A stretch of DNA of 38,535 nt from a virus. The stretch spans positions 1 through 38,535 of the IMG/VR virus record IMGVR_UViG_3300047562_002060; one strand, 5' to 3'. The position numbers and the translations under genes are program-made. This document shows positions 19,881-38,535 of the stretch, piece after piece. The notes under the pieces are model-generated. The model saw only the letters and a program-made list of their open reading frames with translations, had not been told where the DNA came from and searched no databases. Numbering within the stretch: the stretch's first letter is position 1; each line of letters starts with the position of its first letter.

Positions 19881-20501
19881 ATGGCCTTTCAGAGTGTTTT
19901 TTATAAGACAGATCTTTCTGATATTTTAATTGACCAAATCAATCATAAGTTTAATCTAGAAATCGAACTCAATAAATCAAAATTAGTAGGAGATATCATC
20001 GAACCAAAGATAAGAAATTCTGATAATACATGGATTTCTACAGAACATTGGTTAGGTGGATTTGTTTGGCATTATATTGATAAAGCAAATAAGAATAATT
20101 TTCTTTATGATATTTCAAATATTGATGGAGACTCAATTCAATATACTCAATATTCTATAGGACAATATTATAATTGGCATACAGATACTTCTATTGACCA
20201 GTATTTTTTATTATCTGAAGCTGCTTCGTCAGAATTGTCTAATGAATATGCAAATGAAAAAATAGGAATTGAGTATGAACTTTGTAGAAAGTTGTCATTT
20301 TCAATTCAATTATCGGGCCCTGAAGAATATGAGGGAGGCGAGTTGCAGTTTCAAAAAGATGATGGATCTGTCTATTTTGCTCCTAAAGAAAAAGGAGTAA
20401 TTGCTGTTTTTGACTCTCGAGCTAGACATAGAGTTAGAAAGGTAACAAAAGGTGTAAGAAAAAGTTTAGTTGGGTGGGTTGTTGGTCCTAGATGGAAATA
20501 A
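19881..20501 (+). CDS. 2OG-Fe(II) oxygenase, prolyl 4-hydroxylase-like
   Basis: This is a 206-residue protein. The iron site is visible: H-T-D at His100 and Asp102 (YYNWHTDTS) and the distal His183 (SRARHRVRKV), with Arg193 ten residues further on as the likely 2-oxoglutarate anchor. A P-E-E-Y-E-G-G-E-L-Q-F strand lies between, the typical double-stranded beta-helix feature of the P4Hc family. These enzymes hydroxylate proteins, often Pro, or small molecules, using O2 and 2-oxoglutarate. Unlike the three other oxygenases of this window it lies away from the fibres, among early-type genes. The substrate cannot be told from sequence. Cyanophages often carry several such genes. Confidence 0.85.
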   Translation: MAFQSVFYKTDLSDILIDQINHKFNLEIELNKSKLVGDIIEPKIRNSDNTWISTEHWLGGFVWHYIDKANKNNFLYDISNIDGDSIQYTQYSIGQYYNWHTDTSIDQYFLLSEAASSELSNEYANEKIGIEYELCRKLSFSIQLSGPEEYEGGELQFQKDDGSVYFAPKEKGVIAVFDSRARHRVRKVTKGVRKSLVGWVVGPRWK

Positions 20502-20539: not shown

Positions 20540-21160
20540 ATGAAATCGGATTTTTATATAGATAATGTAGGTAAAGAAGAAATCAAAGAACTTCTTTATA
20601 CCTATCATTATCTTAAAGATGAATCCAAAGATTTCAAATCTGGTTTTAACTATGGCCTTTTCAGATCCTCGGTTTCTGACATTTTGCGCGTTGGTGGCTG
20701 CTTGGGTACTTGTATCTTTACTGGGTTACCAGTCCCCGAAATAGCAGTCGGAGCATTTGGTCTAGAGAGAAATCAACAAGAGGGAATCTACGAACTCTCC
20801 CGACTTTGTGTACATCCAGATTTGCAGAAAGAAGAATATAATATCACCTCTTGGTTCGTCAGTCGTTGTATAAGAAGATTTAGAAAAGATGCCCGCGTTC
20901 GTTGTATTCTTAGCTACGCTGATGCTAATCACCACTCTGGAGTTATATACAGAGCTTGTAATTTTACTTACTACGGTTTAACTGATAAGAAATCAGATTT
21001 CTGGATTAAGCAATCTGATGGGTCATATATAAAACACTCAAGAGGTCCTATCAAAGGATTAGAAGGTGAATGGAGAGAAAGAAGTAGGAAGCATAGATAC
21101 TTGATGATATTTGATCAGAGCCTCAAAAAACGCTTGACATGGGAAGAGCAAAAGTGGTAA
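20540..21160 (+). CDS. Mom-like acetyltransferase-fold protein
   Basis: This is a 206-residue protein. The central part (GIYELSRLCVHPDLQKEEYN, then a basic helix of the form SRCIRRFRKD and ILSYADANHHSGVIYRACNF) follows the pattern of the Mom family and relatives: ELxRL-x-hPD, the liSYAD strand, a G-x-I-Y-x-A-x-N-F helix, and a final basic segment ending with a K-x-R-Y motif. Mu Mom is a GNAT-fold enzyme that modifies adenines in phage DNA and protects it from restriction. I recall similar unnamed proteins in many phages. A DNA-modifying role here is an inference. An ordinary GNAT acyltransferase acting on another substrate is the alternative. It has its own promoter, and its last codons hold another promoter. 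Confidence 0.65.
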   Translation: MKSDFYIDNVGKEEIKELLYTYHYLKDESKDFKSGFNYGLFRSSVSDILRVGGCLGTCIFTGLPVPEIAVGAFGLERNQQEGIYELSRLCVHPDLQKEEYNITSWFVSRCIRRFRKDARVRCILSYADANHHSGVIYRACNFTYYGLTDKKSDFWIKQSDGSYIKHSRGPIKGLEGEWRERSRKHRYLMIFDQSLKKRLTWEEQKW

Positions 21161-27200: not shown

Positions 27201-27243
27201 ACCTTATCCATTTACAACTCGTGGATTTAGTATGCCTCTTTAA
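21274..27243 (+). CDS. Long tail-fibre-like structural protein
   Basis: This is a 1989-residue protein, the largest in the window. The first 600 residues include IYVDPNSIDATDSIENQGNS, TRPFKTLQRALAEASRF and TILLYPGDHVV, the beginning of a right-handed beta-helix (pectin-lyase-like) typical of conserved cyanomyovirus fibre proteins. From about 290 on it carries repeated beta modules with a G-x-x-V...YNG-x-[FY]-x-V pattern (about 295-350, 846-910, 1231-1290), plus Gly-rich GAGY/GGSAY repeats near 1070-1150. The C-terminal 400 residues resemble trimeric fibre heads (PLPGLPNNAVQYNDGGFFRG; LYYTDERAQDAVGSAI; ITVTYDDANNRINFNVDN). Its role is probably host attachment. The stop codon overlaps that of a minus-strand gene (shared TTAA). 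Confidence 0.8.
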   Translation: MGLSRLDNFLKSVRGNIIYVDPNSIDATDSIENQGNSLTRPFKTLQRALAEASRFSYQRGLDNDRFEKTTILLYPGDHVVDNRPGWIPDGANNYRLRNGLTSNDFPSWDLTTNFDLETPNNALYKLNSIHGGVIIPRGTSIIGLDLRKTRIRPKYVPNPENDQIERSAVFRVTGACYLWQFTVLDANPNGTCYKDYTTNVFVPNFSHHKLTAFEYADGVNGVSIADDFQTYSTTRTDLDMYYEKIGLAYGSSSGREIQPDYPSSSLDIQPKIDEYRIVGSRGAEVGITSIKAGDGVTPTTNITVTLGNSLAGLDVDTPIRIEGVGSSGYDGQYVVSEVNSSTEIVYQVQNAPVDPLPSVVSATLNISVDTVTSASPYIFNVSMRSVYGMCGLHADGDKADGFKSMVVAQFTGIGLQKDDNAFVKYNTTSGVYEDNTAFGNDNIHTDSRARFKPEYENYHIKCSNDAYLQLVSVFAIGYANHFLAESGGDQSINNSNSNFGSKALVASGFRDVAFSRDDVGYITHVIPPKVLESEETTVEFTSIDVGVTTSVGISSHLYLYNQTNVSVPPESVIEGYRIGAKTNETINVLITDSGTATEYSANVVMPNTLDVISEKKLTVGRSSAGINSITSNVFTLTSNHNLINGESIRVISNTGQLPDGILPNQVYYAITDTVASINPDQIKIAQTLNDAIADNPITINNKGGLLSIVSRVSDKRSGDIGHPIQYDSGEGQWYVNVATAATANTIYSALGTLGVSGLGEATPRSYIKRTPDTRNIIDTVYRLRYVLPSDSSTVARPPLDGYILQESNTSIGSTSTEVAYQFNPSTVTLSNSTELRNQKIIAGATWSSTVATITTELPHDLNAGSEVEILNVTSTNNTSGTANEGYNGTFTVVSVVNSKKFTVTVAADPGTFTNDTSVRTTDLPYLRRKKFLNNYYIYRSQEIQKYIPGEQDGVYHLLVANASNSPTVTPFNELEFTQPIQNLYPQTNRDTPVSDPKASVSFALPDPIGQVVINEPQNSITKESLGKGLLDFNVGIGLTNITSGVAGTTHTFDTKQDHGLNRIVSLSLVSEGAGYGDGTASAKNYFNAQLVNVSGATNGFNATARVSVSAAGTITAIKVMDGGSAYSVGDQLNVVGIATTTGFSVGIVSVTGIYNNIGDTLQVTGIVPETFDAYNNYYRITGITSSKTISVASASAISPAVTSGLGVTVTAFSNTILTGQTLNISSLVYDNTVGLATVTTLQNHGLNVDNKVHLGGAVNDFYNGDFVVKRVVSNTSFVINPGVRTDSPATTGNKFVYQSGFVASGGNITRTNENLGGRQITQYAGISTTLNSTVSDPNSSTLDILNATSLDLNVGDYLLLDEEIVRVKTTVTTSNVSVFRGLFGTRRTSHNSGTVVRRIKPIPIELRRNSLIRASGHTFEYLGFGPGNYSTAFPERQDRTITAQEELLAQATKQSGGIVVFTGMNADGDFYVGNKKVSSATGQEEVFDAPVPTVTGEDPGTGSVNIGFDVLTPLEVSISRSVRVEGGPDANIISEFDGPVIFNNKITSTSEKGIEANSLFLQGDASVSRKYTVGIATPVLAGNPGDVQYNAVPVSGNYIGWVYTDNNRWEQFGYIGQEVNAVGISSGGTYVGLSTLVNFETGLGATITSSHDSSSGITTLRFQSSPLNVGVGLGNTYVGLATQINFIGYGITVGMIFNAGIASVTLSGGVGAGGSLPGLPNNAVQYNDGGFFRGSSGFTFNGTNLELNNTSTSALFRIVQNGTGNAFQVEDSASDTTPFVIANDGSVGIGSALPIAKVEVVASTQEAIRVKSTSGSGNIVRVDNTANDTTPVIIDVNGNVGINTITAIAALDVVGNAAVTGAVRYYETDRTNYVSLQAPSLSSNVTLTLPPVVGAASSVLYTTGSGILNWISPRALVALGLTNTDGLSEGSTNLYYTDERAQDAVGSAINAGIKTGITVTYDDANNRINFNVDNTTPYPFTTRGFSMPL

Positions 27244-27644
27244 TCCTCTGTGATTGTGAGAATATTATATGCTGATATTGTGCCCTCTGCCCTAAAAACA
27301 TGATTTGGAGCAAGAATATATTCAATAGGTGATAAACCTAACTCACTTCCAGTAAAATTTTTAGATATATATGGTGAAGAATTTAAAGTTATAGTTGGGT
27401 ATCTTGTATTTCCAGAATTTACTGATACATAATTTTGAAGGTCTGATACTGAATTAGTTTCAAATCTTGAGTAACATACATTTTTTCCAAAACTTCCACT
27501 AGTGGAATGTGTTGCAAGAGATGCTACATTTCCCCATGAAAAATTAATAGAACCAGACATAAAATTAATTATAAATCTTACATTTTTTCCTGTAGTATTT
27601 GTGTATGAAATGTTTCCACTACCACTTAAAACTTGAGATGCCAT
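27240..27644 (-). CDS. Small beta-rich virion protein, paralog 2
   Basis: This is a 134-residue minus-strand protein with an AAGGAG ribosome site. Its first residues, MASQVLSGSGNISYTN, match those of the upstream gene, and both share N-T-T/N-T-G and a strand-rich body with a closing YNILTITED (the other ends YNIVVIPENG). Residues LSPIEYILAPNHVFRA parallel LSPINYITS in the paralog. The composition (Ser, Asn, Gly, Thr) and alternating hydrophobic pattern suggest a jelly-roll or Ig-like sandwich. I recall similar short proteins in cyanophages near fibre genes. A decoration or fibre-accessory role is an inference. It is a shorter relative of the next protein, lacking about 45 residues in the middle. 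Confidence 0.65.
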   Translation of the reverse strand: MASQVLSGSGNISYTNTTGKNVRFIINFMSGSINFSWGNVASLATHSTSGSFGKNVCYSRFETNSVSDLQNYVSVNSGNTRYPTITLNSSPYISKNFTGSELGLSPIEYILAPNHVFRAEGTISAYNILTITED

Positions 27645-27664
27645 TTTAATAAACTCCTTTTAAA

Positions 27665-28201
27665 TTAACCGTTTTCTGGAATAACAACAATATTATATCC
27701 TCTTATTGTGGAAGATCCACTTTGGTCAACTTGTGGAGGCCACACTGCATTAAGTCCACTAGAATCTAGAACATATCCTTTTCCTACCACTGAAAAAGTA
27801 TCTCCAGGATTTAAGTATACTTCTGTTGGTAAAGAAGATTCTCTAGTTGGAGGTGGATTTGTTCCAGAAGTGTTGGAAATAATAGCAGAATTTGGTCCAT
27901 TAGCCCATCTTGAAATAGGATCTATGACCATTCCATCACCAACAGTTGATGTAATGTAATTTATTGGCGAAAGACCTGGAATTGCGGATATAACTGAACT
28001 TGAACCATTATGAGATATATTTTTTCCCATACCAAGAACAAATCCCGCAACTGCTTGTGCAGAACTTGAAGGATTTCCCCATCCTATAGTTATTTCTGAG
28101 ACAGTAGTAGATACCACAGAATTGATAATAATTCTTACAATCTGTCCAGTATTATTTGTATAAGAAACATTTCCGCTTCCACTCAACACTTGAGATGCCA
28201 T
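27665..28201 (-). CDS. Small beta-rich virion protein, paralog 1
   Basis: This is a 178-residue minus-strand protein, first of a two-gene unit. I place the start at 28201, where MASQVLSGSGNVSYTNNTG matches the start of its paralog. The open frame reaches 28348, but that part overlaps the divergent gene and the promoter. The body is beta-rich, with an unusual Pro/Thr-rich turn (GTNPPPTRESSLPTEVYLN) followed by PGDTFSVVGKGYV and the closing RGYNIVVIPENG. No signal peptide or membrane segment is evident. No Shine-Dalgarno sequence precedes the ATG. A late promoter on the minus strand lies about 24 bases upstream, so it is late-expressed and probably structural. Confidence 0.65.
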   Translation of the reverse strand: MASQVLSGSGNVSYTNNTGQIVRIIINSVVSTTVSEITIGWGNPSSSAQAVAGFVLGMGKNISHNGSSSVISAIPGLSPINYITSTVGDGMVIDPISRWANGPNSAIISNTSGTNPPPTRESSLPTEVYLNPGDTFSVVGKGYVLDSSGLNAVWPPQVDQSGSSTIRGYNIVVIPENG

Positions 28202-28224
28202 ATTAACTTTAAATGCTTTTCTAA

Positions 28225-28232
28225 TATTTATA
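28225..28232 (-). promoter_or_regulatory. T4-type late promoter, minus strand
   Basis: On the minus strand this is an exact TATAAATA octamer, 24 bases before the start at 28201. It overlaps the plus-strand late promoter by four bases. Confidence 0.7.
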
Positions 28233-28236
28233 AATA
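28229..28236 (+). promoter_or_regulatory. T4-type late promoter, plus strand
   Basis: An exact TATAAATA octamer lies 29 bases before the TTG start of the fibre-like gene. With its minus-strand partner it forms a palindromic divergent late promoter. Confidence 0.7.
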
Positions 28237-28264
28237 AATAAAAGAAACAAGGGGAGAGTGAACC

Positions 28265-29233
28265 TTGGGAATAGATAAGAACTTTGTAGTAAAGCATGGT
28301 CTTGAGGTAAATACAGACCTCATTCTTGCAAATGCCGTAACTGGCCAAGTTGGTATTGCTACCACCATTACAAAATACACTCTACATGTTAATGGTGGTA
28401 TTGGTGCAACTAACCTATCTGTAACTGGTCTTGCAACATTTCCTCAGTTAGTATTATCAGGAACCGTAAGTGCTGCATCATCAACTGGAGTATCAGGTCA
28501 ATATTTAAAATCTACTGGATCTGGAGTTGTCTGGGAAGATTTTCCAGTAGGTAGAACATCTACAACATTTGCAGCAGCTGCAGGACAAGATACATTTAGT
28601 TTTGCATATGCTGTAGGTCTTCTTGATGTATTCGTAAATGGAATTAAACTGACACCATCAGAATTTACTGCATCTGATGGTGTTTCTATTGTATTAACAA
28701 CACCTTGTTTTGGTGGAGAAACGGTTGATGTTCATGCTTATTCTGTATCAGGAATTGGTGTTGGTGGTACTGGAATCACTGGACTAACAGTTCAAGATGA
28801 AGGATCTGTCATTGGAACTCCTCAAGGTGTAACATCAATTAACTTTATTGGTGCTGGATTGACTGCATCAGCATCTGGTGCAGGCCTTACAGTAAGTTTA
28901 CAAGATGCTTGGACACCATCGGATGTTGGAATAAGTACTTTATCAAATGTTGGTGTTGGAACTACAAATCCAACATCAAAACTTACTGTTACTGGTGATG
29001 GTTATTTTACTGGTGTCGTTACTGCAACAAGTTTTGTTGGTGATTTAGTTGGTACTGCATCAAATGCATCTGGGGTTTCTACTGATATTGGAATTTATAC
29101 TACTGGTATTGTTACTGCAACAGGTGGATTTATCAGTCAACTTGGAGTAAATCCCGTTGTGATTACAATCAGTGGTAGTGAACTTGTGTTTACTGTTTCT
29201 GGTATAGGATCAACCTCATTTACACTTGCATAA
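28265..29233 (+). CDS. Fibre-like structural protein with TTG start
   Basis: This is a 322-residue protein. Translation appears to begin at TTG 28265, ten to fifteen bases after AAGGGGAG. There is no ATG nearby, and the resulting start (MGIDKNFVVKHGLEVNTDLI) matches the N-F-V-V-K-x-G-L-E-V beginning I recall from cyanophage fibre proteins. The body consists of Gly/Thr/Ser-rich beta repeats: TLHVNGGIGATNLSVTGLAT, a repeat of GVVTATSFVGDLVGT, and a DTFSFAYAVGLLDVFVNGIK segment typical of phage structural proteins. The C-terminus (VITISGSELVFTVSGIGST) ends in a beta strand. It is probably a trimeric fibre or baseplate-attached rod. A late promoter drives it. Confidence 0.75.
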   Translation: MGIDKNFVVKHGLEVNTDLILANAVTGQVGIATTITKYTLHVNGGIGATNLSVTGLATFPQLVLSGTVSAASSTGVSGQYLKSTGSGVVWEDFPVGRTSTTFAAAAGQDTFSFAYAVGLLDVFVNGIKLTPSEFTASDGVSIVLTTPCFGGETVDVHAYSVSGIGVGGTGITGLTVQDEGSVIGTPQGVTSINFIGAGLTASASGAGLTVSLQDAWTPSDVGISTLSNVGVGTTNPTSKLTVTGDGYFTGVVTATSFVGDLVGTASNASGVSTDIGIYTTGIVTATGGFISQLGVNPVVITISGSELVFTVSGIGSTSFTLA

Positions 29234-29239
29234 TAAATA
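29232..29239 (+). promoter_or_regulatory. Possible late promoter
   Basis: AATAAATA overlaps the stop of the preceding fibre-like gene, 21 bases before the next start at 29260. It has one mismatch from the octamer. Confidence 0.45.
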
Positions 29240-29259
29240 AAACATAAGGAACTCCAGAG

Positions 29260-30891
29260 ATGGCAAATAACCGAGAACTATCACAATTCGGAAACTTTAT
29301 ATCAGTCAATGATACCTCTGAAAACATTGGTATTAGTACTGATGTCATAATTTCTGGAGTTCTGACTGCTACCAGATATTATGGTGATGGATCACAACTC
29401 ACAGGAATTGCAACAGTAGGAGGAGGGACAACTTTAGGAATCACCACAATCACTGATCTTACAGTTACTGGTGTCACTTCTTTAACATCACTGGTTGTCA
29501 GTGGTGTTTCTACTTTTGGAAATATTGTTTTAGATCCAGTAGGAATTATTACTGCTGCTTCTGGAATTGTAACTTATTATGGTGATGGTTCTAATCTAAC
29601 TGGTGTTATTTCTGGTGTTGGAATTAGTACCGAAGGTGGATCAGTAGGTACAGGAGCTACAGTATTAGATTTCCGTGGTGCTGGAATTTCTACAGTTACG
29701 GTTGGATCAGGTATTGGAACTATCTTCATCCAGGGAGGTGGTGGTGGAGGAGCTGTAAGTATCAGTAGTATTGCTCCAACCTCTCCTTCAAATGGTGATC
29801 TGTGGTATAGTATCATCTACGGAAGAACCTTTGTTTATTATGATGAAGTTGCTCTAGGTGTTGGTGCTACTGCCGTATGGGTTGATGCTGCCCCATTTAA
29901 TGTAGGTGTTATAACTGCAATATATGGTGGTGTTGCATTCAGTGATGGTACTGCGTCAACTCCGAGTTGGTATTTCACTGATGATACGACAACTGGTGTA
30001 TTCTCTCCAGTGGATGGTGAACTGACATTTGTATCCACAGGATCTTCTATTTTAAATGTAAACTCAAGTGGAATCATAGTAACTGGCGTAAGTACTTTAT
30101 CTACTGCTCTTGTTAGTGATTTAAATGTTACTGGTGTAAGTACTTTAGGAACTCTACAAATCTCATCAGGTATTGTAACTGCTACATCAGGTATCGTAAC
30201 ATACTATGGTGATGGTCAGTATTTGGAAGGAATTGCAGCAGGTGGTTCTGGACAGTTTAATACTGGAATTACAAGTTCTCTTGGATATGCTGTTACTGAC
30301 TCTATGGCCACTGCATATACTGCTAGTGATGCTGTGGTTGTTCATTCAATTCATGTGACAAACATTGATGGTGAAGCAAGTGCCGATATCAGTGGGCAAT
30401 TATATTCGGGACAATATTCAATTGCACACACTGTTCCTGTTCCTGCGGGTTCTTCTGTTGAACTTCTAAAGCAACCTAAGATATTGAATACTGGCGAAAC
30501 AATCCAATTGCAGGCAAATACTAGTGGTGATCTACATGCAACAATTACAGTAGAAGAAAAAACAGGAGATACCACATACATTGGAGTTGGTGTTGATATT
30601 ACTTCTGCTGCAACTTATACTGATCTCTGGACTGCAACGGCTAACTCAGTTCTCCAAGGAATTCTTCTTGCAAATGATGATGGAACTGCTGATGTGAAAG
30701 CAAGAGTTGTCTGGACTGATGGAAGCAATAATATTCAAGGATATTATGCTTATGATCTAACAATCCCTGCAGATGCAACTGTTGAAATTCTTGAACAACC
30801 AAAATATCTTCCAAGTGGTTATAAGGTTCGTGTCTATGCAAACCAAGCAGATCGATTAGAGGCTATTCTTTCTGCAAGAACCATTGCTTGA
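29260..30891 (+). CDS. Fibre-like protein with duplicated C-terminal beta domain
   Basis: This is a 543-residue protein. The N-terminal 150 residues have the cyanophage fibre repeat G-V-L-T-A-T-x-Y-Y-G-D-G-S-x-L-T-G-I, which recurs as GIVTYYGDGSNLTGV and GIVTYYGDGQYLEGI. A Gly-rich hinge follows near 165, then a PTSPSNGDLWYSIIYGRTFVY strand common in virion proteins. Residues about 360-540 are two similar 85-90-residue beta-sandwich domains in tandem (HSIHVTNIDGEASADISGQL with VPAGSSVELLKQPKILNTGE, and LQGILLANDDGTADVKARVV with IPADATVEILEQPKYLPSGY). It is co-directional with the RCC1 gene that follows after 12 bases and may form a complex with it. Confidence 0.75.
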   Translation: MANNRELSQFGNFISVNDTSENIGISTDVIISGVLTATRYYGDGSQLTGIATVGGGTTLGITTITDLTVTGVTSLTSLVVSGVSTFGNIVLDPVGIITAASGIVTYYGDGSNLTGVISGVGISTEGGSVGTGATVLDFRGAGISTVTVGSGIGTIFIQGGGGGGAVSISSIAPTSPSNGDLWYSIIYGRTFVYYDEVALGVGATAVWVDAAPFNVGVITAIYGGVAFSDGTASTPSWYFTDDTTTGVFSPVDGELTFVSTGSSILNVNSSGIIVTGVSTLSTALVSDLNVTGVSTLGTLQISSGIVTATSGIVTYYGDGQYLEGIAAGGSGQFNTGITSSLGYAVTDSMATAYTASDAVVVHSIHVTNIDGEASADISGQLYSGQYSIAHTVPVPAGSSVELLKQPKILNTGETIQLQANTSGDLHATITVEEKTGDTTYIGVGVDITSAATYTDLWTATANSVLQGILLANDDGTADVKARVVWTDGSNNIQGYYAYDLTIPADATVEILEQPKYLPSGYKVRVYANQADRLEAILSARTIA

Positions 30892-30903: not shown

Positions 30904-32028
30904 ATGGCAACAACTAGAAAGGGCGTATGGGATCTACAAGAAGTAAGAGATCAGATATTGAATAATGAATGGGAACAACAAATTGAATTATGGTCATGGG
31001 GTAGAAATCCTGCTGGCCAACTAGGACAAAATAATAGAACATATTATTCGTCACCAGTACAAATACCGGGTACTACATGGAGTTCTATAGACTGTGGTTT
31101 TCAACATTCATTAGCAATAAAAACTAATGGAACTTTATGGGCATGGGGTATTAATCAAGTAGGAGAACTGGGACAAGGTAATAAAACACAATATTCATCA
31201 CCAGTGCAAATACCAGGAACAACATGGAGTTCTATAGATTCAGGAACTTATCATATATTAGCAACCAAAACTGATGGAACCTTATGGTCTTGTGGATATA
31301 ATAATAGAGGACAACTAGGACAAAATAATACAACAGATTATTCATCACCAGTCCAAATACCAGGAACCACATGGAATTCTATAAGTGGTGGTAACGGATA
31401 CAATGTATTAGCAACCAAAACTGATGGAACTTTATGGTCTTGGGGTTTCAATCAATATGGACAATTGGGCCAAAATAATACGACATATTATTCATCACCA
31501 GTACAAATACCGGGTACTACATGGAGTTCTATAGACTGTGGTTTTCAACATTCATCAGCAACCAAAACCGATGGAACTTTATGGGCATGGGGTTATAATA
31601 ATAATGGACAATTAGGACAAGGTAATATAACACAGTATTCATCACCAATACAAATACCAGGAACTACATGGAGTTTTATAGTAGTAGGTAGAGATCATGC
31701 ATTAGCATTTAAAAATGATAATACTTTATGGTCATGGGGATCTAATAGTAATGGAAAATTAGGACAAAATAATAGAACATATTATTCATCACCAATACAA
31801 ATACCAGGAACTACATGGAATTTTATAAGTGTGGGACAATTTCATTCATCAGCACTCAAAACCGATGGAACATTATGGTCTTGGGGTTATGGTCTTGGTG
31901 GACAACTAGGACAAAATAATAGAATAGACCAGTCATCACCAATACAAATACCAGGAACTACATGGAGTTCTGTTAGTAGTCGTGTTGGTAGACATTCACT
32001 GGCACTTAAATCATTATTACTCAACTAA
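30904..32028 (+). CDS. RCC1-repeat beta-propeller, putative tail adhesin 1
   Basis: This is a 374-residue protein behind a strong AGGAGG site. Residues 1-27 (TTRKGVWDLQEVRDQI) are a short attachment segment. The rest is seven copies of an RCC1-type blade of about 49-51 residues, each with L-W-[SA]-W-G-x-N-x-x-G-x-L-G-Q-x-N, SSPVQIPGTTW-[SN] and KTDGT; one blade has Cys for the second Trp. Seven blades is the number in eukaryotic RCC1, so a closed propeller is likely. RCC1 itself is a nucleotide-exchange factor, but phage copies near fibres are more likely binding heads. Blade differences cluster in the loops, as expected for a recognition surface. It is followed by two more such genes. Confidence 0.85.
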   Translation: MATTRKGVWDLQEVRDQILNNEWEQQIELWSWGRNPAGQLGQNNRTYYSSPVQIPGTTWSSIDCGFQHSLAIKTNGTLWAWGINQVGELGQGNKTQYSSPVQIPGTTWSSIDSGTYHILATKTDGTLWSCGYNNRGQLGQNNTTDYSSPVQIPGTTWNSISGGNGYNVLATKTDGTLWSWGFNQYGQLGQNNTTYYSSPVQIPGTTWSSIDCGFQHSSATKTDGTLWAWGYNNNGQLGQGNITQYSSPIQIPGTTWSFIVVGRDHALAFKNDNTLWSWGSNSNGKLGQNNRTYYSSPIQIPGTTWNFISVGQFHSSALKTDGTLWSWGYGLGGQLGQNNRIDQSSPIQIPGTTWSSVSSRVGRHSLALKSLLLN

Positions 32029-32033
32029 AATAT

Positions 32034-32041
32034 CATAAATA
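32034..32041 (+). promoter_or_regulatory. Late promoter before the hypothetical protein
   Basis: CATAAATA lies 20 bases before the ATG at 32061, with one mismatch from the octamer. It would restart transcription between the first RCC1 gene and the genes after it. Confidence 0.5.
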
Positions 32042-32060
32042 ACTAAAAAGTATCAAACCA

Positions 32061-32765
32061 ATGAAGATATTCAAGTTCTATAAAGTAGATGGAGAAACTG
32101 GAGTTTCTGTAGCAATTAGAAAGGCACCTGCTGGCCCATGTCTACCAAATCTTCCTGGTCTAAATCAAATTTTTGATTTTCAAGGTTTCATCTATGCAGA
32201 AGTAGATGATAGTGCTGTTGCAGATCCTGATAACTATATCTTTGAAATCACCGAAGAAGAGTTTGGTGTTGATGTACATGCAAAGACCAATCAGTATCTT
32301 GAAGATTATAAGAATGCAGCATATCCAAATGAAAAGGCTCTTCGTGAATTAGTATTTGGCAAGTATGATGCAACTGCTTCTATTGCTGGTGTCTATAAGT
32401 ACACTGAAGCACTTAAGTTTCTTGCAGATGGAACACCTTCAATAGACATTACTGCAGAAGCTGATGCTCGTGGTGTAAGTGAAACTGAGATCGCAGAAAA
32501 AATTGTAGTGAATCATGAGAAGTTTAGATTTGATGATGCAACAATCGCAGGAATTCGTGGTAAAATTCTAGATAGATTGGATGCATATGTATTTGATGAA
32601 ACTGATGCTCTTGGAAGTTGGAATGAACTTGTAAATAGAATGGAAGTCGTTGGCCATCGTGAACCAAGTCCTGATGGTTCTGCATCACAACAAGAAGATT
32701 TAGAAGTTAAAGTTCCTTATTACTATCCAGATATCGCAACTCGTTGGAATTATCTAGGTACTTGA
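32061..32765 (+). CDS. Hypothetical protein between RCC1 genes, possible fibre chaperone
   Basis: This is a 234-residue acidic, soluble protein. The N-terminus MKIFKFYKVDGETGVSVAIR is a beta hairpin, followed by alternating helix and strand. Notable segments are PNLPGLNQIFDFQGFIYAEV (about 28-51), FEITEEEFGVDVHAKTNQYL and a helical stretch with EIAEKIVVNHEKFRFDD; the C-terminus is VPYYYPDIATRWNYLGT. I do not recognise a family. Its place, between two adhesin-like propeller genes and with four bases to the second, resembles that of fibre-assembly chaperones, but the sequence does not demonstrate this. It could also be a structural component. Codon use is like the neighbours. Confidence 0.55.
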   Translation: MKIFKFYKVDGETGVSVAIRKAPAGPCLPNLPGLNQIFDFQGFIYAEVDDSAVADPDNYIFEITEEEFGVDVHAKTNQYLEDYKNAAYPNEKALRELVFGKYDATASIAGVYKYTEALKFLADGTPSIDITAEADARGVSETEIAEKIVVNHEKFRFDDATIAGIRGKILDRLDAYVFDETDALGSWNELVNRMEVVGHREPSPDGSASQQEDLEVKVPYYYPDIATRWNYLGT

Positions 32766-32769
32766 TCTT

Positions 32770-33906
32770 ATGATTACTGACGAAACTTCTGGTGTTTGGG
32801 GCCTTTGGGATACTTATGCCAAAACAAATAAGGGTGTTTATCCTTATGTTGGAGCACCTGGTTTATTTGCATGGGGTGTTAATAATAATGGCGAACTAGG
32901 ACAAAATAATAACACATATGCTTCATCACCAGTACAAATACCAGGAACCACATGGAGTTCTATAAGTGTGGGGAGAGAGCATTCATTAGCAATCAAAACT
33001 GATGGAACTCTATGGTCATGGGGTCAAAATAGTCTTGGACCAGTAGGACAAAATAATATAACACCATATTCATCACCAGTACAAATACCAGGAACCACAT
33101 GGAGTTCTATAGATGCAAGTACTCAATCTATTTTTTCATTAGCAATCAAAACTGATGGAACTCTATGGTCATGGGGTCAAAATAGTCTTGGACAACTAGG
33201 ACAAAATAATATAACACCATATTCATCACCAGTACAAATACCAGGAACCACATGGAGTTCTATAAGTGCTGGTAATAATTATGCTCTGGCAACAAAAACC
33301 GATGGAACCTTATGGTCATGGGGTCGTGGTATAGAAGGGCAATTAGGACAAAATACTTCTGGTACAGGAACATATGTTTCATCACCAGTACAAGTACCAG
33401 GTACTACATGGAGTTCTATAAGTGCTGGTGTTGAACTTTCATTAGCAACCAAAACTGATGGAACTCTATGGGCATGGGGCAATAATAATTATGGAGAACT
33501 AGGACAAAATAATATAACACGATATTCATCACCAGTACAAATACCAGGAACCACCTGGAGTTCTATAAGTGCAAATTTATACAACGCATATGCAACTAAG
33601 ACTGATGGAACTTTATGGGTATGGGGAAGGAATCAATACGGAGAACTGGGACAAAATAATAACACATCATATTCATCACCAATACAAATACCAGGAACCA
33701 CATGGAGTTCTATCTCTTCCGGCATACGCTTTCATTCATTAGCAACCAAAACTGATGGAACCTTATGGGCTTGGGGTTATAATATTAGAGGACAACTAGG
33801 ACAAAATAATCTAACACAATATTCATCACCAGTACAAATACCAGGAATCGGTTGGAGTTCTGTAGATGGAGGTGATTCTTTTTCAATGGCAATCAAAATT
33901 CAATAA
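32770..33906 (+). CDS. RCC1-repeat beta-propeller, putative tail adhesin 2
   Basis: This is a 378-residue protein, starting four bases after the preceding stop. Residues 1-32 (TSGVWGLWDTYAKTNKGVYP) form the attachment part, similar in pattern to G-V-W-D-L in the first propeller gene. Seven RCC1-type blades follow, again a complete ring. The fourth blade has an insertion (QNTSGTGTYVSSP). Blades two and three are almost identical at DNA level over about 130 bases, a sign of recent duplication or gene conversion. It shares long stretches with the first and third RCC1 genes. Its function is probably receptor or glycan binding at the tail tip, inferred from fold and context. Five modification genes follow directly. 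Confidence 0.85.
   Translation: MITDETSGVWGLWDTYAKTNKGVYPYVGAPGLFAWGVNNNGELGQNNNTYASSPVQIPGTTWSSISVGREHSLAIKTDGTLWSWGQNSLGPVGQNNITPYSSPVQIPGTTWSSIDASTQSIFSLAIKTDGTLWSWGQNSLGQLGQNNITPYSSPVQIPGTTWSSISAGNNYALATKTDGTLWSWGRGIEGQLGQNTSGTGTYVSSPVQVPGTTWSSISAGVELSLATKTDGTLWAWGNNNYGELGQNNITRYSSPVQIPGTTWSSISANLYNAYATKTDGTLWVWGRNQYGELGQNNNTSYSSPIQIPGTTWSSISSGIRFHSLATKTDGTLWAWGYNIRGQLGQNNLTQYSSPVQIPGIGWSSVDGGDSFSMAIKIQ
32982..33264 (+). repeat. Near-identical 153-base direct repeat within RCC1 gene 2
   Basis: Bases 32982-33111 recur at 33135-33264 with period 153 (51 codons); reading them side by side I find two differences in 130 positions. The repeat is in frame with the propeller blades, so copy-number change would keep the gene open. 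More diverged copies run through all three RCC1 genes. Confidence 0.85.
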
Positions 33907-33910
33907 ATTC

Positions 33911-34489
33911 ATGAACCTTTTTGAACTTCTTATTATTCAACCAAATATCATTCCACCACAACACATACAACAACTTCTTCAACTCACAAATCAACCAACA
34001 TCACATGCATCAGTTGGTTCTGGAGAAGAGAAGATTGAACTGCAAACAAGAAACACTGAGTGGTATCCAATACCATATCCAGTTCTTCAAAATCTTAACA
34101 ATGCGGTGATGTCCTGTTATCATTCTTTTATTGAGCCAAAGTATCACTCAAAAGTTAAGAACATTGAACCCACACAGTTTCTTTCCTATCCTGTGGGAGG
34201 TCACTACATAGAACATAACGATTCAGAAAACTTTGAAAATGGTCAATGGGTAAGAATTGCTGCAAGAGATATATCAATACTTTTTTATCTCAATGAAAAT
34301 TATACTGGTGGTGAACTTGAATTCACTCAACTTGGTTTGACGATCAAACCAAAAACTGGTATGATGATTGCATTTCCATCCTATAAGGAATTTGCTCATA
34401 AGGTACATCCAGTCACTTCTGGAACTCGTTATTCACTCGTCTCATGGTTAGAAACCGAACAAAAGATTTATGACACAATATCAAGATAA
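33911..34489 (+). CDS. 2OG-Fe(II) oxygenase, prolyl 4-hydroxylase type
   Basis: This is a 192-residue protein. I chose ATG 33911, four bases after the RCC1 stop. The track could extend to 33866, but that would overlap the RCC1 coding end. Iron ligands are seen as His102 and Asp104 (HYIEHNDSE) and a distal His (FAHKVHPV; His163 or His166), followed by Arg173 for 2-oxoglutarate. The strand YTGGELEFTQLG between them is the standard G-G-x-L-x-F of P4Hc-type enzymes. The protein is expected to hydroxylate a residue of a protein substrate. Its operon partners, two more oxygenases and two glycosyltransferases between propeller genes, suggest that virion adhesins are the substrate. It overlaps the next gene by 20 bases. 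Confidence 0.85.
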   Translation: MNLFELLIIQPNIIPPQHIQQLLQLTNQPTSHASVGSGEEKIELQTRNTEWYPIPYPVLQNLNNAVMSCYHSFIEPKYHSKVKNIEPTQFLSYPVGGHYIEHNDSENFENGQWVRIAARDISILFYLNENYTGGELEFTQLGLTIKPKTGMMIAFPSYKEFAHKVHPVTSGTRYSLVSWLETEQKIYDTISR

Positions 34490-35069
34490 AGGATTTCAAG
34501 TTGTTCCGCAATTTATTCCACCTTTCTTTGCACAATATCTAAAGAACTATTTTGATCTTCTTCACAAGAACGATCAAGTATGTAATGAGCCTCCAGATGC
34601 TCTAGGGCATTTTGATGATGGAAAACTTGCAAATTCTGTTGGAATTTATGGCAATCCAGCATTTGATATGCTAATGCTTATGTCTCTTCCAATGGTAGAA
34701 GGTATTGTTGGAAAGAAACTTTTACCAACTTATACTTATGCCAGAATTTATTTCAATGATGCAAATCTTCTTCCTCATCTAGATCGTGAAGAGTGTGAAC
34801 ATTCAGTATCTCTTTGCCTAGGAGGCGAGTATGAGGCACTATGGCCTTTGTGGTTTAAAGATGGAGATAAAGAACCTGAGTATGCTGCAATGAGCGTTGG
34901 AGATGCAGTAATTTACAAAGGTAATAAAATTCATCATTGGAGAGATGAGTTTCAGGGACAAAAACAGTTTCAAGTTTTTATGCACTATGTAGAGGCAGAT
35001 GGTGAATTTAAAGATAAACTATACGACACACGACCTTACCTTGGACTTCCTGCAAACACTAAAAAATGA
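34470..35069 (+). CDS. 2OG-Fe(II) oxygenase superfamily protein
   Basis: This is a 199-residue protein. The H-x-D pair is His103 and Asp105 (LLPHLDREECEHSVSLCLG), and a distal His lies at 155 or 156 (IHHWRDEFQG), with Arg158 near for the co-substrate. The N-terminal FQVVPQFIPPFFAQYLKNYF is the helix-strand start common to phytanoyl-CoA dioxygenase-like and related families. I recall this family as frequent in cyanophages. The substrate is unknown. Overlap with the previous gene (20 bases) and an ATGA overlap with the next tie it to a hydroxylase-glycosyltransferase operon. It is too different from the preceding oxygenase to be a recent duplicate, so the two probably act on different sites. 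Confidence 0.8.
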   Translation: MTQYQDKGFQVVPQFIPPFFAQYLKNYFDLLHKNDQVCNEPPDALGHFDDGKLANSVGIYGNPAFDMLMLMSLPMVEGIVGKKLLPTYTYARIYFNDANLLPHLDREECEHSVSLCLGGEYEALWPLWFKDGDKEPEYAAMSVGDAVIYKGNKIHHWRDEFQGQKQFQVFMHYVEADGEFKDKLYDTRPYLGLPANTKK

Positions 35070-36367
35070 TCAAACAACTTATTATTGAACTCAGTGAAAA
35101 AGGAGAACCAAAAGCAGCAAAAGAACTAGCAATTGCATATCTCAAACATGAAAAGGATGTTGAGATATTAAATTTACTTGGTAAACTTCATCATGATGAT
35201 AAAGAGTTTGATAAGGCACTGGAATGTATGAATGCAATTCCAGAGAGCCCTGGTGTCATCATCAATAAAGCAAAGTGTCTTTATTATTTGAAGAGAGCAC
35301 CAGAGGCAGAAAAACTTTTATATTCATTGCCAAAAGAATACCGAGAGGATCCACTGACTCAGATTGATATGACCTTGTATAAAACTGCACAAGGAAAATT
35401 TGATGAGAGTAAGAAGATTCTTAAACCGCTTGCTAACTCATATCCTCAAGCCGCATTTAATTATGGGTGGTTTCTTCTTGGAGAAAATAAACTTCAAGAA
35501 GGATACAAATATATTCGTGAAGGTGCGAAGTTAAAAGTATGGGGTCATGAATGGATACTAAAAGAACGATATGATATTGATGAAGATCAAAGGTGGAATG
35601 GAGAGACAGTAGATGTGATTGCATACTATCTTGAAGGTGGTATGGGTGACGAGATGATCTTTGTTCGTTATGCAGAACAATTTCAAAAGTATTGCAACAC
35701 TGTAAAGATCTTTTGTACTTCATCTATCAAGAAACTTTTAGAAGATTGTGGTTATGAAAACCTTTATCTTCATGAAGAGATTGTAAGAACAAAATGGAAT
35801 AAGTTTGTTCCTGCAATGTCTGCACCATACTTTCTTGGATTATCTGATCCTTGTGAGAATGTTTCCTTTCCTTACTTTAAGAAGACATCAAATCCAGTAA
35901 AAGAAATGAAAGAAATTGCTGGAGATAAAAAGAAGATTTGTATTCGTTGGAAAGGTAATCCTCAGTTTGAACATGATCAATTCCGAAGTGTTCCAATTGA
36001 GAAACTTTTAGGATTAGAAAAGTTTGGGCAGTTGTTTTCTATTCAAATTGAAGATAGTGATCTACCAAAGAATGCAAATGTATGGGATCTATCACACTTG
36101 ATTTCTTCTTGGAGCGATACCTATGATATCTTTGCAGAAAGTGATTTGATTGTAACTTCATGTACTGCAACGGCTCACTTGGCAGGTGCAATGGGTGCTA
36201 AAGTGATTGTACTTCCTCCTTTAGTTCCTTACATTACTTGGGCTTCAGATACAATGCATTGGTATCCAGATAATGTTGTGGTTGTTTCTCAAATGGAGTA
36301 TAATAACTGGGATAAAACGATTGAAAAATTATATGGAGTTGTAGAAGATGCAATATCAAACACATGA
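35066..36367 (+). CDS. TPR-containing glycosyltransferase (GT-B type)
   Basis: This is a 433-residue protein starting in an ATGA overlap. Residues 1-155 are helix pairs with TPR spacing (LAIAYLKHEKDVEILNLLGK; EFDKALECMNAIP; AFNYGWFLLGENKLQEGYKY). Residues about 180-430 are a GT-B-type glycosyltransferase with EGGMGDEMIFVRYAEQF, IRWKGNPQFEHDQFR and the nucleotide-sugar end VTSCTATAHLAGAMG. The layout resembles bacterial TPR glycosyltransferases related to heptosyltransferases and to O-GlcNAc transferases, in which the TPR part binds the protein substrate. That argues for glycosylation of a protein, likely a virion adhesin or fibre. Donor and acceptor are not known. It overlaps the next oxygenase gene by 20 bases. 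Confidence 0.85.
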   Translation: MIKQLIIELSEKGEPKAAKELAIAYLKHEKDVEILNLLGKLHHDDKEFDKALECMNAIPESPGVIINKAKCLYYLKRAPEAEKLLYSLPKEYREDPLTQIDMTLYKTAQGKFDESKKILKPLANSYPQAAFNYGWFLLGENKLQEGYKYIREGAKLKVWGHEWILKERYDIDEDQRWNGETVDVIAYYLEGGMGDEMIFVRYAEQFQKYCNTVKIFCTSSIKKLLEDCGYENLYLHEEIVRTKWNKFVPAMSAPYFLGLSDPCENVSFPYFKKTSNPVKEMKEIAGDKKKICIRWKGNPQFEHDQFRSVPIEKLLGLEKFGQLFSIQIEDSDLPKNANVWDLSHLISSWSDTYDIFAESDLIVTSCTATAHLAGAMGAKVIVLPPLVPYITWASDTMHWYPDNVVVVSQMEYNNWDKTIEKLYGVVEDAISNT

Positions 36368-36953
36368 GTTATTTCCTACCAGTGTTGTAAGAGTCAATTG
36401 TGATGGTCTTTTTACTCAAGAAGATCAACAGTTGATGATGCAAAGTGTAGATCAACTGATTGAAATGGGCATCTATACACAAAATGAATTAACTCCAAAG
36501 TATCAAACTCATGTTGTTTTATTTCAGGATGATGCACCAGAGATTTGGCAAAGACTAAGAACTAGTTTTTATGGTGCATGTAAAACTTACTTAGAGGTTG
36601 TTAAGGATTTTACAGGCAATCAAAATGCAATTGAATTCACTGGCTCTGGTGCATGGTGCTATAAAGGTTGGAAGTCATTAAATCAAGTAGAATCAAATCC
36701 TTGGCATCATCATAATCCATCATTTCTTTCTGGAGTTTATTATTTGAAAGTTCCTGGTGATGGAAGCACTGGTGGTACAGAGTTTCATGATCCTAGAACT
36801 GCACCAGCTATTGGAACAAGAAATCAATGTGTTTCACCTATTGAAAACTCATGGGTAATTTTTCCTGGTTGGTTACAACATCGTAGTAATTTTGTGAACA
36901 CTGAAGAACCAAGATATGTGATCGCTGCAAACATTTATGCAAAGGTAAGATGA
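36348..36953 (+). CDS. 2OG-Fe(II) oxygenase of the PF13759-like group
   Basis: This is a 201-residue protein. The N-terminus HELFPTSVVRVNCDG and the core NPWHHHNPSFLSGVYYLKVP (His120-122), then IFPGWLQHRSNFVNTEEPRY (His178) are typical of the putative 2OG-Fe(II) oxygenases that I know as PF13759, common in marine phages and picocyanobacteria. In that group the metal pair is of H-x-[HN] rather than H-x-D form, so the exact ligands here are uncertain. It is the third oxygenase of the operon and lies between the two glycosyltransferase genes, overlapping both (20 and 4 bases). I infer that it modifies an acceptor residue for glycosylation, or acts on a sugar. Confidence 0.8.
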   Translation: MQYQTHELFPTSVVRVNCDGLFTQEDQQLMMQSVDQLIEMGIYTQNELTPKYQTHVVLFQDDAPEIWQRLRTSFYGACKTYLEVVKDFTGNQNAIEFTGSGAWCYKGWKSLNQVESNPWHHHNPSFLSGVYYLKVPGDGSTGGTEFHDPRTAPAIGTRNQCVSPIENSWVIFPGWLQHRSNFVNTEEPRYVIAANIYAKVR

Positions 36954-37639
36954 AAAGAGCAATTTTAACTTATTATAATAATGAGATTGATAAAAACCTT
37001 TTAATGTATCAGCAACAGGTTCTGGAGAAATTCAATACCACTGCTGATTATTATCCATTGTTCTGTAAGCTAGGAACTGAACAAATCATTCATTATCAAG
37101 GTCTTGATTATGGAGTGGGTCAGTTGTTTAGTGAAAACTATGATAGTGTTTTGATTTTGGATGTAGATTGTGTTCCATTAAACTCTTATGCACTTGAGTA
37201 TATCTTTGGAAAAGCAGAGCAAAATGTATTGATTGGAAATGCTCAAAGATCTGGACATATTGAGAACGATGAGCATCTTTATATTGGTTCTTCTTGTTTG
37301 TGTTTAAGTCGTCAGATTTATGAGGACTTTGGACGAATGACTTTTGCTCCTGATCATATTAATGCAGATACTTGTGAGTATTATACTTTTGAGGCTGAAA
37401 AAAGAGGAGTAGAAATTGAAATCTTCATGCCTAAGAACTATATTAGAGATCCTATTGGGTGTTCATGGGACTTAGGTAAAGGAAGAGGAAAGTATGGTAT
37501 TGGTACAACTTTTATGAATAATAAGAGTGTGGAGATGTTCTTTCACTTGTTCTCAAGTCGTGATAGAGTGTACAATACTTACTTCTATGATAAATGTGAG
37601 GAGGTGCTTCAAATAAATACTAAAAAAGTAGGTTCTTAA
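36950..37639 (+). CDS. GT-A type glycosyltransferase
   Basis: This is a 229-residue protein starting in an ATGA overlap. A D-x-D motif for metal and nucleotide-sugar binding is at Asp71 and Asp73 (SVLILDVDCVPLNSYALEYI), preceded by the beta-alpha-beta of a GT-A fold (ILTYYNNEIDKN at the start). Further on are a YIGSSCLCLSRQIYEDFG acceptor region and GCSWDLGKGRGKYGIGTTF. It is smaller than many family 2 enzymes, so it is probably a minimal catalytic domain without membrane anchor. The sugar donor is unknown. It is the last of five overlapping modification genes and ends just before the third propeller gene, which suggests that the enzymes act on propellers or the fibres. Confidence 0.8.
   Translation: MKRAILTYYNNEIDKNLLMYQQQVLEKFNTTADYYPLFCKLGTEQIIHYQGLDYGVGQLFSENYDSVLILDVDCVPLNSYALEYIFGKAEQNVLIGNAQRSGHIENDEHLYIGSSCLCLSRQIYEDFGRMTFAPDHINADTCEYYTFEAEKRGVEIEIFMPKNYIRDPIGCSWDLGKGRGKYGIGTTFMNNKSVEMFFHLFSSRDRVYNTYFYDKCEEVLQINTKKVGS
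37612..37619 (+). promoter_or_regulatory. Possible late promoter before RCC1 gene 3
   Basis: AATAAATA lies inside the end of the glycosyltransferase gene, 25 bases before the ATG at 37644. It has one mismatch from the octamer and the usual spacing. Confidence 0.5.
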
Positions 37640-37643
37640 GAGA

Positions 37644-38535
37644 ATGTCTATAAGGAAGAATACTTGGGATTTGGATGGAATTTATGATCTAACAAAAGAT
37701 GGTCAGAATGTTTATGCTGGTACTCCTGCTTTATTTTCTTGGGGATATAATGAATTTGGACAACTAGGACAAAGTAATACCACACAATATTCATCACCAG
37801 TTCAAATTCCAGGACTTACATGGAGTTCTATAAGTGGTCGTATTGAACATACATTAGCAATCAAAACTGATGGAACTTTATGGGCATGGGGTCTTAATCA
37901 AGCAGGAGAACTGGGACAAAATAATAGAACAAGATATTCATCACCAGTACAAATACCAGGAACCACATGGAGTTCTATAAGTGGTGGAGGAAACCATTCA
38001 TTAGCTACTAAAACTGATGGAACCTTATGGGCTTGGGGTGGCGATGCAAATAGTGTTAATGCATTAGGACAAAATAATAGAGTAAAATATTCATCACCAG
38101 TGCAAATACCAGGAACTAATTGGAATTCTATAAGTGCCAACCTTCAACATTCATTAGCAACTAAAACTGATGGAACCTTGTGGGGATGGGGTGGTAATTA
38201 TGATGGCGAATTGGGGTTAAACAATATATCATCACTGGGATCTGGTGTATCTTCGCCAACACAAATACCAGGAACTACATGGAGTTCTATAAATGCTGGC
38301 AGTAGTAATTCATTAGCAACAAAAACTGATGGAACTTTATGGGGATGGGGAAATAATCAATTTGGAAAACTAGGACAAAATAATAGAACATACTATTCAT
38401 CACCTGTACAAATACCAGGAACCACATGGAGTTCTATAAGTGGAGAATCTTTTGCAATCAAAACTGATGGAACCTTATGGTCATGGGGGTATAATACTCA
38501 AGGACAACTAGGACAAAATAATAGAATACAATATT
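37644..38535 (+). CDS. RCC1-repeat beta-propeller, putative tail adhesin 3 (cut by window end)
   Basis: The frame is open from ATG 37644 to the window edge, 297 codons without a stop. Residues 1-30 (MSIRKNTWDLDGIYDLTKDG) are an attachment segment like those of the other two RCC1 genes, ending in YAGTPALFSWG, very close to YVGAPGLFAWG of gene 2. Six RCC1-type blades are visible, so one more would complete the seven-bladed ring beyond the window. Two blades carry insertions (GGDANSVNALGQNN; the region with SSLGSGVSSPTQI). It starts five bases after the glycosyltransferase stop. Like its paralogs it is probably a binding head of the tail. The 3' end is missing only because of the window. Confidence 0.85.
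   Translation, partial: MSIRKNTWDLDGIYDLTKDGQNVYAGTPALFSWGYNEFGQLGQSNTTQYSSPVQIPGLTWSSISGRIEHTLAIKTDGTLWAWGLNQAGELGQNNRTRYSSPVQIPGTTWSSISGGGNHSLATKTDGTLWAWGGDANSVNALGQNNRVKYSSPVQIPGTNWNSISANLQHSLATKTDGTLWGWGGNYDGELGLNNISSLGSGVSSPTQIPGTTWSSINAGSSNSLATKTDGTLWGWGNNQFGKLGQNNRTYYSSPVQIPGTTWSSISGESFAIKTDGTLWSWGYNTQGQLGQNNRIQY

Follow-up and report, generated by a model that had tools for sequence, protein, structure and literature searches.

What do five overlapping enzyme genes do between two genes for putative tail adhesins? The question is posed by a 38.5 kb window, the whole of IMG/VR virus record IMGVR_UViG_3300047562_002060, which by its gene content comes from a T4-like tailed phage. The window encodes three RCC1 β-propellers, putative tail adhesins and the proposed substrates of the enzymes; between the second and third (Table 1) lie genes for three 2-oxoglutarate (2OG)-Fe(II) oxygenases (A, B and C), for a protein that joins a TPR domain to a GT-B glycosyltransferase (here TPR-GT; glycosyltransferase, GT) and for a small GT-A glycosyltransferase. 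The original prediction held that this operon hydroxylates and then glycosylates the propellers or neighbouring fibres. Our best reading is a phage cassette for O-glycosylation and sulfation of the phage's own propeller adhesins, to which some lineages add hydroxylation; we consider this probable because in many environmental phages, this one included, a GT, often accompanied by a sulfotransferase, stands beside propellers that carry a Ser-Ser-Pro (SSP) motif in each blade.

Using a single tool on a single collection, we picked viral loci by each enzyme and counted those with an RCC1 gene within three genes. An RCC1 gene lies this close in 76 of 83 TPR-GT loci and in 15 of 16 TPR-GT clusters formed at 50% identity; this set covers the 80 nearest of at least 582 relatives, so the linkage is shown only down to about 30% identity. 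For oxygenases A and B the corresponding counts are 19/79 and 19/60. Selecting viral loci by RCC1 instead recovers the TPR-GT in 60 of 79, the other 19 being second arrays of block-bearing genomes or contigs under 13 kb, and the enzyme is found in none of 72 RCC1-like loci of bacterial and archaeal genomes. Among annotated phages, a TPR-GT query returned four records from three phages, and each of them has RCC1 genes nearby. The link stays while oxygenases come or go and the sulfotransferase is fused or separate, and it extends over RCC1 genes with anywhere from 7 to 49 repeats. Since the oxygenases mostly occur without RCC1 but the TPR-GT occurs near it, the TPR-GT is the RCC1-specific partner and the oxygenases are general marine-phage enzymes recruited into the block. 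What had been proposed as a unit bound to RCC1 thus divides: the oxygenases occur independently of these genes, the TPR-GT seldom does. On this linkage and on the blade motif described below, the propellers are the probable substrate of the TPR-GT; of the two targets first proposed they are the one that gains support, long fibres becoming less likely.

The exceptions vary in kind. Loci L135 and L174, evidently one phage, have RCC1 genes four genes off on both sides; in L138 and L148 the contig starts with the TPR-GT or close to it; and in L160 the TPR-GT adjoins another repeat propeller-like protein, not RCC1. This 926-residue neighbour has the repeat TSSDGxxW, and the locus (L160:3-4691) looks as if one propeller had been swapped for another beside the TPR-GT.

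The predicted structure of the TPR-GT (predicted local distance difference test (pLDDT) 94.3) reveals TPR helices at residues 1–170, in line with the Pfam assignment, and a GT-B domain at 183–433, the architecture first proposed from the sequence. The best solved match of the GT-B domain is the GT9 protein 3tov (Z 16.8, root-mean-square deviation 2.9, 240 aligned residues), with further matches to WaaF (Z 16.4) and TibC (Z 15.7). The modelled fold comes nearest to the GT9 heptosyltransferases, TibC among them, and by analogy with GT9 the donor may be ADP-heptose. Foldseek places bacterial OGT homologues and SPINDLY in its top rows; like these and HMW1C (GT41), which act on proteins, the TPR-GT joins a TPR domain to GT-B. 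It has no GT41 match in Pfam at E 0.1, and its GT-B half fits GT9 better than human OGT (Z 16.8 versus 10.9).

GT9-like enzymes of the TibC/AAH type put heptose on adhesin serines, and a four-cysteine iron finger has been described for these bacterial autotransporter heptosyltransferases (PMC4358343). The TPR-GT resembles them in its GT-B, GT9-like core and in standing beside a putative repeat adhesin, the counterpart of TibA and AIDA-I, whose serines TibC and AAH modify. It differs in that residues 1–170 of the model are TPR helices in place of the N-terminal β-barrel, in lacking the iron finger (a 24-sequence alignment holds a single nearly invariant cysteine, C366), in being paired with an RCC1 propeller rather than an autotransporter, and in having a sulfotransferase partner. 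The enzyme would work like TibC/AAH but is not a member of that group, iron finger and barrel both being absent. The GT9 fold is also typical of lipopolysaccharide heptosyltransferases, and relatives of the window carry a GT25-type gene and a nucleotide-sugar epimerase nearby; both features would suit enzymes that alter host surface glycans such as lipopolysaccharide, limiting superinfection or adsorption to debris, and that adjoin the adhesins through a shared receptor. We regard this as unlikely: no serotype-conversion-type membrane or flippase gene was found among the block enzymes examined, TPR domains usually bind proteins, and tight linkage to one protein fold with a matching blade motif would be unexpected.

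That motif emerged from aligning single blades and comparing position frequencies between 59 phage loci (one per GT lineage) and 68 bacterial loci. The two largest differences fall on both residues before a conserved proline (divergence 0.43 each; next 0.24), which are Ser in 85–89% of phage blades and a mixture of Asn, Thr, Ser and Val in bacteria (Ser 16–18%). The register is sound, as the proline occurs in 92% of bacterial blades. SSP occupies at least half of the blades in 54 of 59 GT lineages and in none of the 68 bacterial loci, and is absent from five GT-less phages with enough countable repeats. Both classes of serine codon are used for it, sometimes inside a single genome and also from one sister lineage to the next, which points to selection acting on the amino acid itself. 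The SSP serine is a candidate acceptor site of the TPR-GT, an assignment that we place just short of probable. NxS/T sequons, the site expected for HMW1C-like N-glycosylation, are frequent in the window; they are not kept across GT-linked phages and were dropped in favour of SSP for that reason.

Two activities that are fused in one protein generally work in a common pathway. In freshwater phages a sulfotransferase (Sulfotransfer_3, with E values as low as 4e-17) is joined to the N terminus of the TPR-GT; such a fusion is present in 77 of 154 TPR-GT loci, and a separate sulfotransferase gene lies close by in 29 more (counts not dereplicated). The marine clade has a separate sulfotransferase gene after RCC1 gene 3, that is, past the end of the window, followed by a GT25-type gene; in L004 it is a Sulfotransfer_1 protein (L004:11736-12566, 1.1e-10) directly after the orthologue of RCC1 gene 3. 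S-SRM01 and others have separate sulfotransferases adjoining RCC1 or the TPR-GT. NUMOD3-type homing endonuclease genes (L048:2664-3467, L054:11464-12159) also occur in these regions, directly beside the sulfotransferase–GT gene and an RCC1 gene.

The second transferase of the block, which has no Pfam family, models as a GT-A fold (pLDDT 79.9) with generic matches that include LH3, COLGALT1 and Mimivirus R699 (Z about 11). Aspartates D71 and D73 of the predicted DVD (DxD) motif are conserved, D73 and H199 being invariant, and we propose that the enzyme lengthens the glycan. Combining a hydroxylase and a GT-A enzyme on one repeat protein recalls the collagen modification of animals and giant viruses by LH3, COLGALT1 or R699; the block differs in that collagen repeats are lacking, the GT-A match is generic and the TPR-GT occurs without oxygenases in most phages.

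All three oxygenase assignments hold, two through Pfam and that of oxygenase B through its fit to phrog_2954 and a retained HxD...H motif. The closest solved proteins to oxygenase A are the prolyl 4-hydroxylases 3itq and 5hv0 (E about 1.3e-14), next to which come a prolyl 3-hydroxylase, PKHD hydroxylases and LH3; its HxD...H residues H117, D119 and H178 are invariant, and by sequence it is a prolyl-4-hydroxylase-like 2OG-Fe(II) oxygenase. Comparing GT phages with and without oxygenase A, the largest blade differences are the Pro and Gly of a Pro-Gly later in the blade (0.53 each). Pro-Gly is found in 38 of 38 oxygenase-A loci (17–100% of blades), and 102 of 107 GT loci without oxygenase A have it in 5% of blades or fewer; among the five remaining, L133 is a contig that starts inside the TPR-GT. 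X-Pro-Gly is the sequence used by collagen prolyl 4-hydroxylase. Oxygenase A may, tentatively, hydroxylate the proline of this Pro-Gly. A second array, with six to seven RCC1 genes (520–750 residues), is present in genomes that carry the block (L021, L024–L029); nearly all of its blades have SSP and Pro-Gly, and no enzyme genes adjoin it.

Hydroxylation as preparation of the glycosylation site, the sequence of events first envisaged, loses ground here: the block of most GT-RCC1 phages carries no oxygenase, and each reaction has its own candidate site, SSP for glycosylation and Pro-Gly for hydroxylation. Very improbable is that the enzymes hypermodify phage DNA by oxidation and then glucosylation, as in TET-type systems. 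Oxygenase A does have a weak Tet_JBP match, below the cut-off, and the window encodes a Mom-family protein (20540–21160), but the enzyme is much closer to prolyl hydroxylases, and TPR and sulfotransferase partners fit DNA poorly.

Oxygenase B has no Pfam match; its family phrog_2954 is named 'ferrochelatase' in PHROGs and 2OG-Fe(II) oxygenase by some phage annotators, and its HxD...H is invariant. Oxygenase C retains an invariant WHxHNP...H...R, and for neither of the two was a close solved relative found. Oxygenase B occurs in 156 phage records, mostly cyanophages and pelagiphages and few with RCC1; in the five examined, oxygenases cluster near tail, neck or other flexible genes. Marine T4-like phages likewise have many relatives of the block oxygenases in 2OG-Fe(II) clusters, frequently within the tail-to-neck region, although most phages with such clusters, unlike the window, lack RCC1 and the TPR-GT. 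For the oxygenases of cyanophages, a part in 2-oxoglutarate balance or in DNA repair has been proposed (PMC3037559). The block might on this basis be a cargo hotspot, a fibre region of the kind in which marine phages gather small metabolic genes, with oxygenases that do other jobs: 2OG oxygenases are numerous in cyanophages, mostly without RCC1 and often beside other tail genes. A hotspot would leave unexplained the GT–RCC1 linkage, the sulfotransferase–GT fusion and the presence of Pro-Gly in every oxygenase-A locus, and we judge it improbable. Several PHROGs labels (phrog_2954, phrog_3531, phrog_2297, phrog_274 and phrog_4219), among them 'ferrochelatase', 'DNA endonuclease V' and 'regulator of chromosome condensation (DNA metabolism)', resemble misannotations of 2OG oxygenases and tail propellers.

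From the families, folds, linkage, fusion and motif associations above we infer a chemistry and a role for modification of the propellers. The three RCC1 β-propellers would be made as tail adhesins, and the TPR domain, in the place of the N-terminal barrel of TibC, would hold each newly made propeller in the infected cell while the GT-B domain adds a sugar to a serine of the SSP loop, which almost all blades have, so that one propeller could receive about seven sugars at most. This sugar would be extended by the GT-A enzyme, and the sulfotransferase would sulfate either the glycan or the tyrosine that stands just before SSP in about a fifth of SSP blades. In this lineage oxygenase A would hydroxylate the proline of X-Pro-Gly in the same blades, oxygenases B and C perhaps acting on other residues. 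Propellers so decorated could differ in host binding, stability, recognition or masking. In its most specific form, a widespread phage module whose dedicated protein O-glycosyltransferase and sulfotransferase set a ring of sulfated glycans on RCC1 propellers, at a single serine motif in each blade, joined in one lineage by a prolyl hydroxylase that modifies the same blades a second time, the scheme is plausible, though we hold it with some doubt.

Several observations weigh against modification of the propellers. Blades of one genome evolve jointly and are not independent, which is why we counted loci and lineages. The blades of S-SRM01 read S/T-T-P despite its TPR-GT, and SSP is scarce in L127 and L132; the motif could also have been passed down within a single lineage of phage RCC1 without being an acceptor. 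On the GT tree the oxygenase-A phages fall within a single clade that includes one loss, about two changes in all, so the Pro-Gly link is one evolutionary contrast and may reflect shared descent. Genes for the donor sugar were not identified in the window, and TPR-GT relatives more remote than our set might behave differently. Finally, in the related contigs L105/L106 the TPR-GT and GT-A genes adjoin a long fibre, the RCC1 gene being nine genes away, and oxygenases without RCC1 often adjoin other tail genes, as might be seen if the substrate were another tail protein, such as the upstream long fibres or baseplate proteins, and the propellers bystanders. With RCC1 the neighbour in the great majority of loci, in very different phages, and with SSP tracking the TPR-GT, another tail protein seems quite an unlikely target.

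Cassettes of adhesin-modifying enzymes are already known; what would be new is one for phage RCC1 propellers. Phage-encoded GTs of mycobacteriophages are thought to act on virion proteins (PMC11256854), the target there being the capsid rather than a propeller adhesin, with no sulfotransferase or oxygenase module described. The open-licence literature yielded no paper that connects RCC1 with phage tails and glycosyltransferases, nor any description of a phage module of sulfotransferase, glycosyltransferase and tail fibre. It is customary to regard the receptor-binding proteins of phages as polypeptides without modifications. Were the propellers decorated as proposed, the receptor-binding tip of a phage would be a glycoprotein, host-range prediction from sequence alone would miss a layer for many aquatic phages, and adhesins produced for study in ordinary E. 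coli would differ from the natural ones. The module offers a testable job for some orphan marine-phage 2OG oxygenases and predicts exact residues; with S-SRM01 and BUCT-ZZ01 as cultured carriers, it is testable now.

We confirmed the positions of the five overlapping genes between RCC1 genes 2 and 3, with consecutive overlaps of 20, 4, 20 and 4 bases, all on the + strand. Four of the five open reading frame starts are as originally given; for oxygenase A the mechanical reading frame begins at 33866, and the start first proposed, 33911, is preferred because orthologues begin at the equivalent position in the alignment. Several distinct IMG/VR contigs, as well as Marine virus AG-345-E08, have these genes in the same order, so the five-gene block is not chance. 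A near-identity DNA search against phage records gave a sole match of 45 bases, to S-SRM01. RCC1 repeats in the three propellers are recognized by Pfam at E 6e-44 to 4e-64, and propeller 1 has the N terminus GVWDLQEVRD, which is specific to this position and common to orthologues. Upstream lie genes for a tail tube, a T4 baseplate protein and a baseplate hub/lysozyme. The two fibre/baseplate-like genes at 28265–30891, whose products are possible alternative substrates, set the block in the tail region. The product of the gene between RCC1 genes 1 and 2 matches no Pfam or PHROG family and, judged by position alone, is possibly an assembly factor.

Table 1. Genes of the enzyme block and its surroundings, in window positions
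Feature	Position	Strand	Remarks
Two fibre/baseplate-like genes	28265–29233, 29260–30891	+	partial PHROG matches to baseplate proteins
RCC1 propeller 1	30904–32028	+	374 aa, 7 repeats; Pfam WD40_RLD 9e-73, RCC1 4e-64
Conserved gene between RCC1 1 and 2	32061–32765	+	234 aa; in all close relatives, same position
RCC1 propeller 2	32770–33906	+	378 aa, 7 repeats; Pfam WD40_RLD 9.6e-70
Oxygenase A	33911–34489	+	2OG-FeII_Oxy_3 (Pfam E 1.6e-16)
Oxygenase B	34470–35069	+	phrog_2954 (1.2e-47)
TPR plus GT-B glycosyltransferase (TPR-GT)	35066–36367	+	Pfam TPR; GT-B by predicted structure
Oxygenase C	36348–36953	+	2OG-FeII_Oxy_5 (Pfam E 1.2e-11)
Small GT-A glycosyltransferase, DVD motif	36950–37639	+	GT-A fold by model
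RCC1 propeller 3	37644–38535, cut by window end	+	Pfam WD40_RLD 3e-51

RCC1-type genes also form arrays in the jumbo phages Erwinia phage Hallingskeid and Salmonella phage Munch (L256, L259), where at least eight RCC1-type or 'DNA condensation' genes stand in tandem with no GT; their location suggests that the products are virion proteins. Elsewhere in the window, the Mom-family protein (+ strand; Pfam Mom, E 7e-21), of a DNA-modification family, adjoins a 2OG-Fe(II) oxygenase at 19881–20501. A TnsA-like endonuclease N-terminal domain (E 8e-18) is encoded at 931–1614 (− strand), within the phage tail region. Two genes at 27240–28348 (− strand) share the start MASQVLSGSGN[IV]SYTN, one of them with a weak lectin-like (PA-IL) match, and several relatives carry an opposite-strand open reading frame at a similar place.

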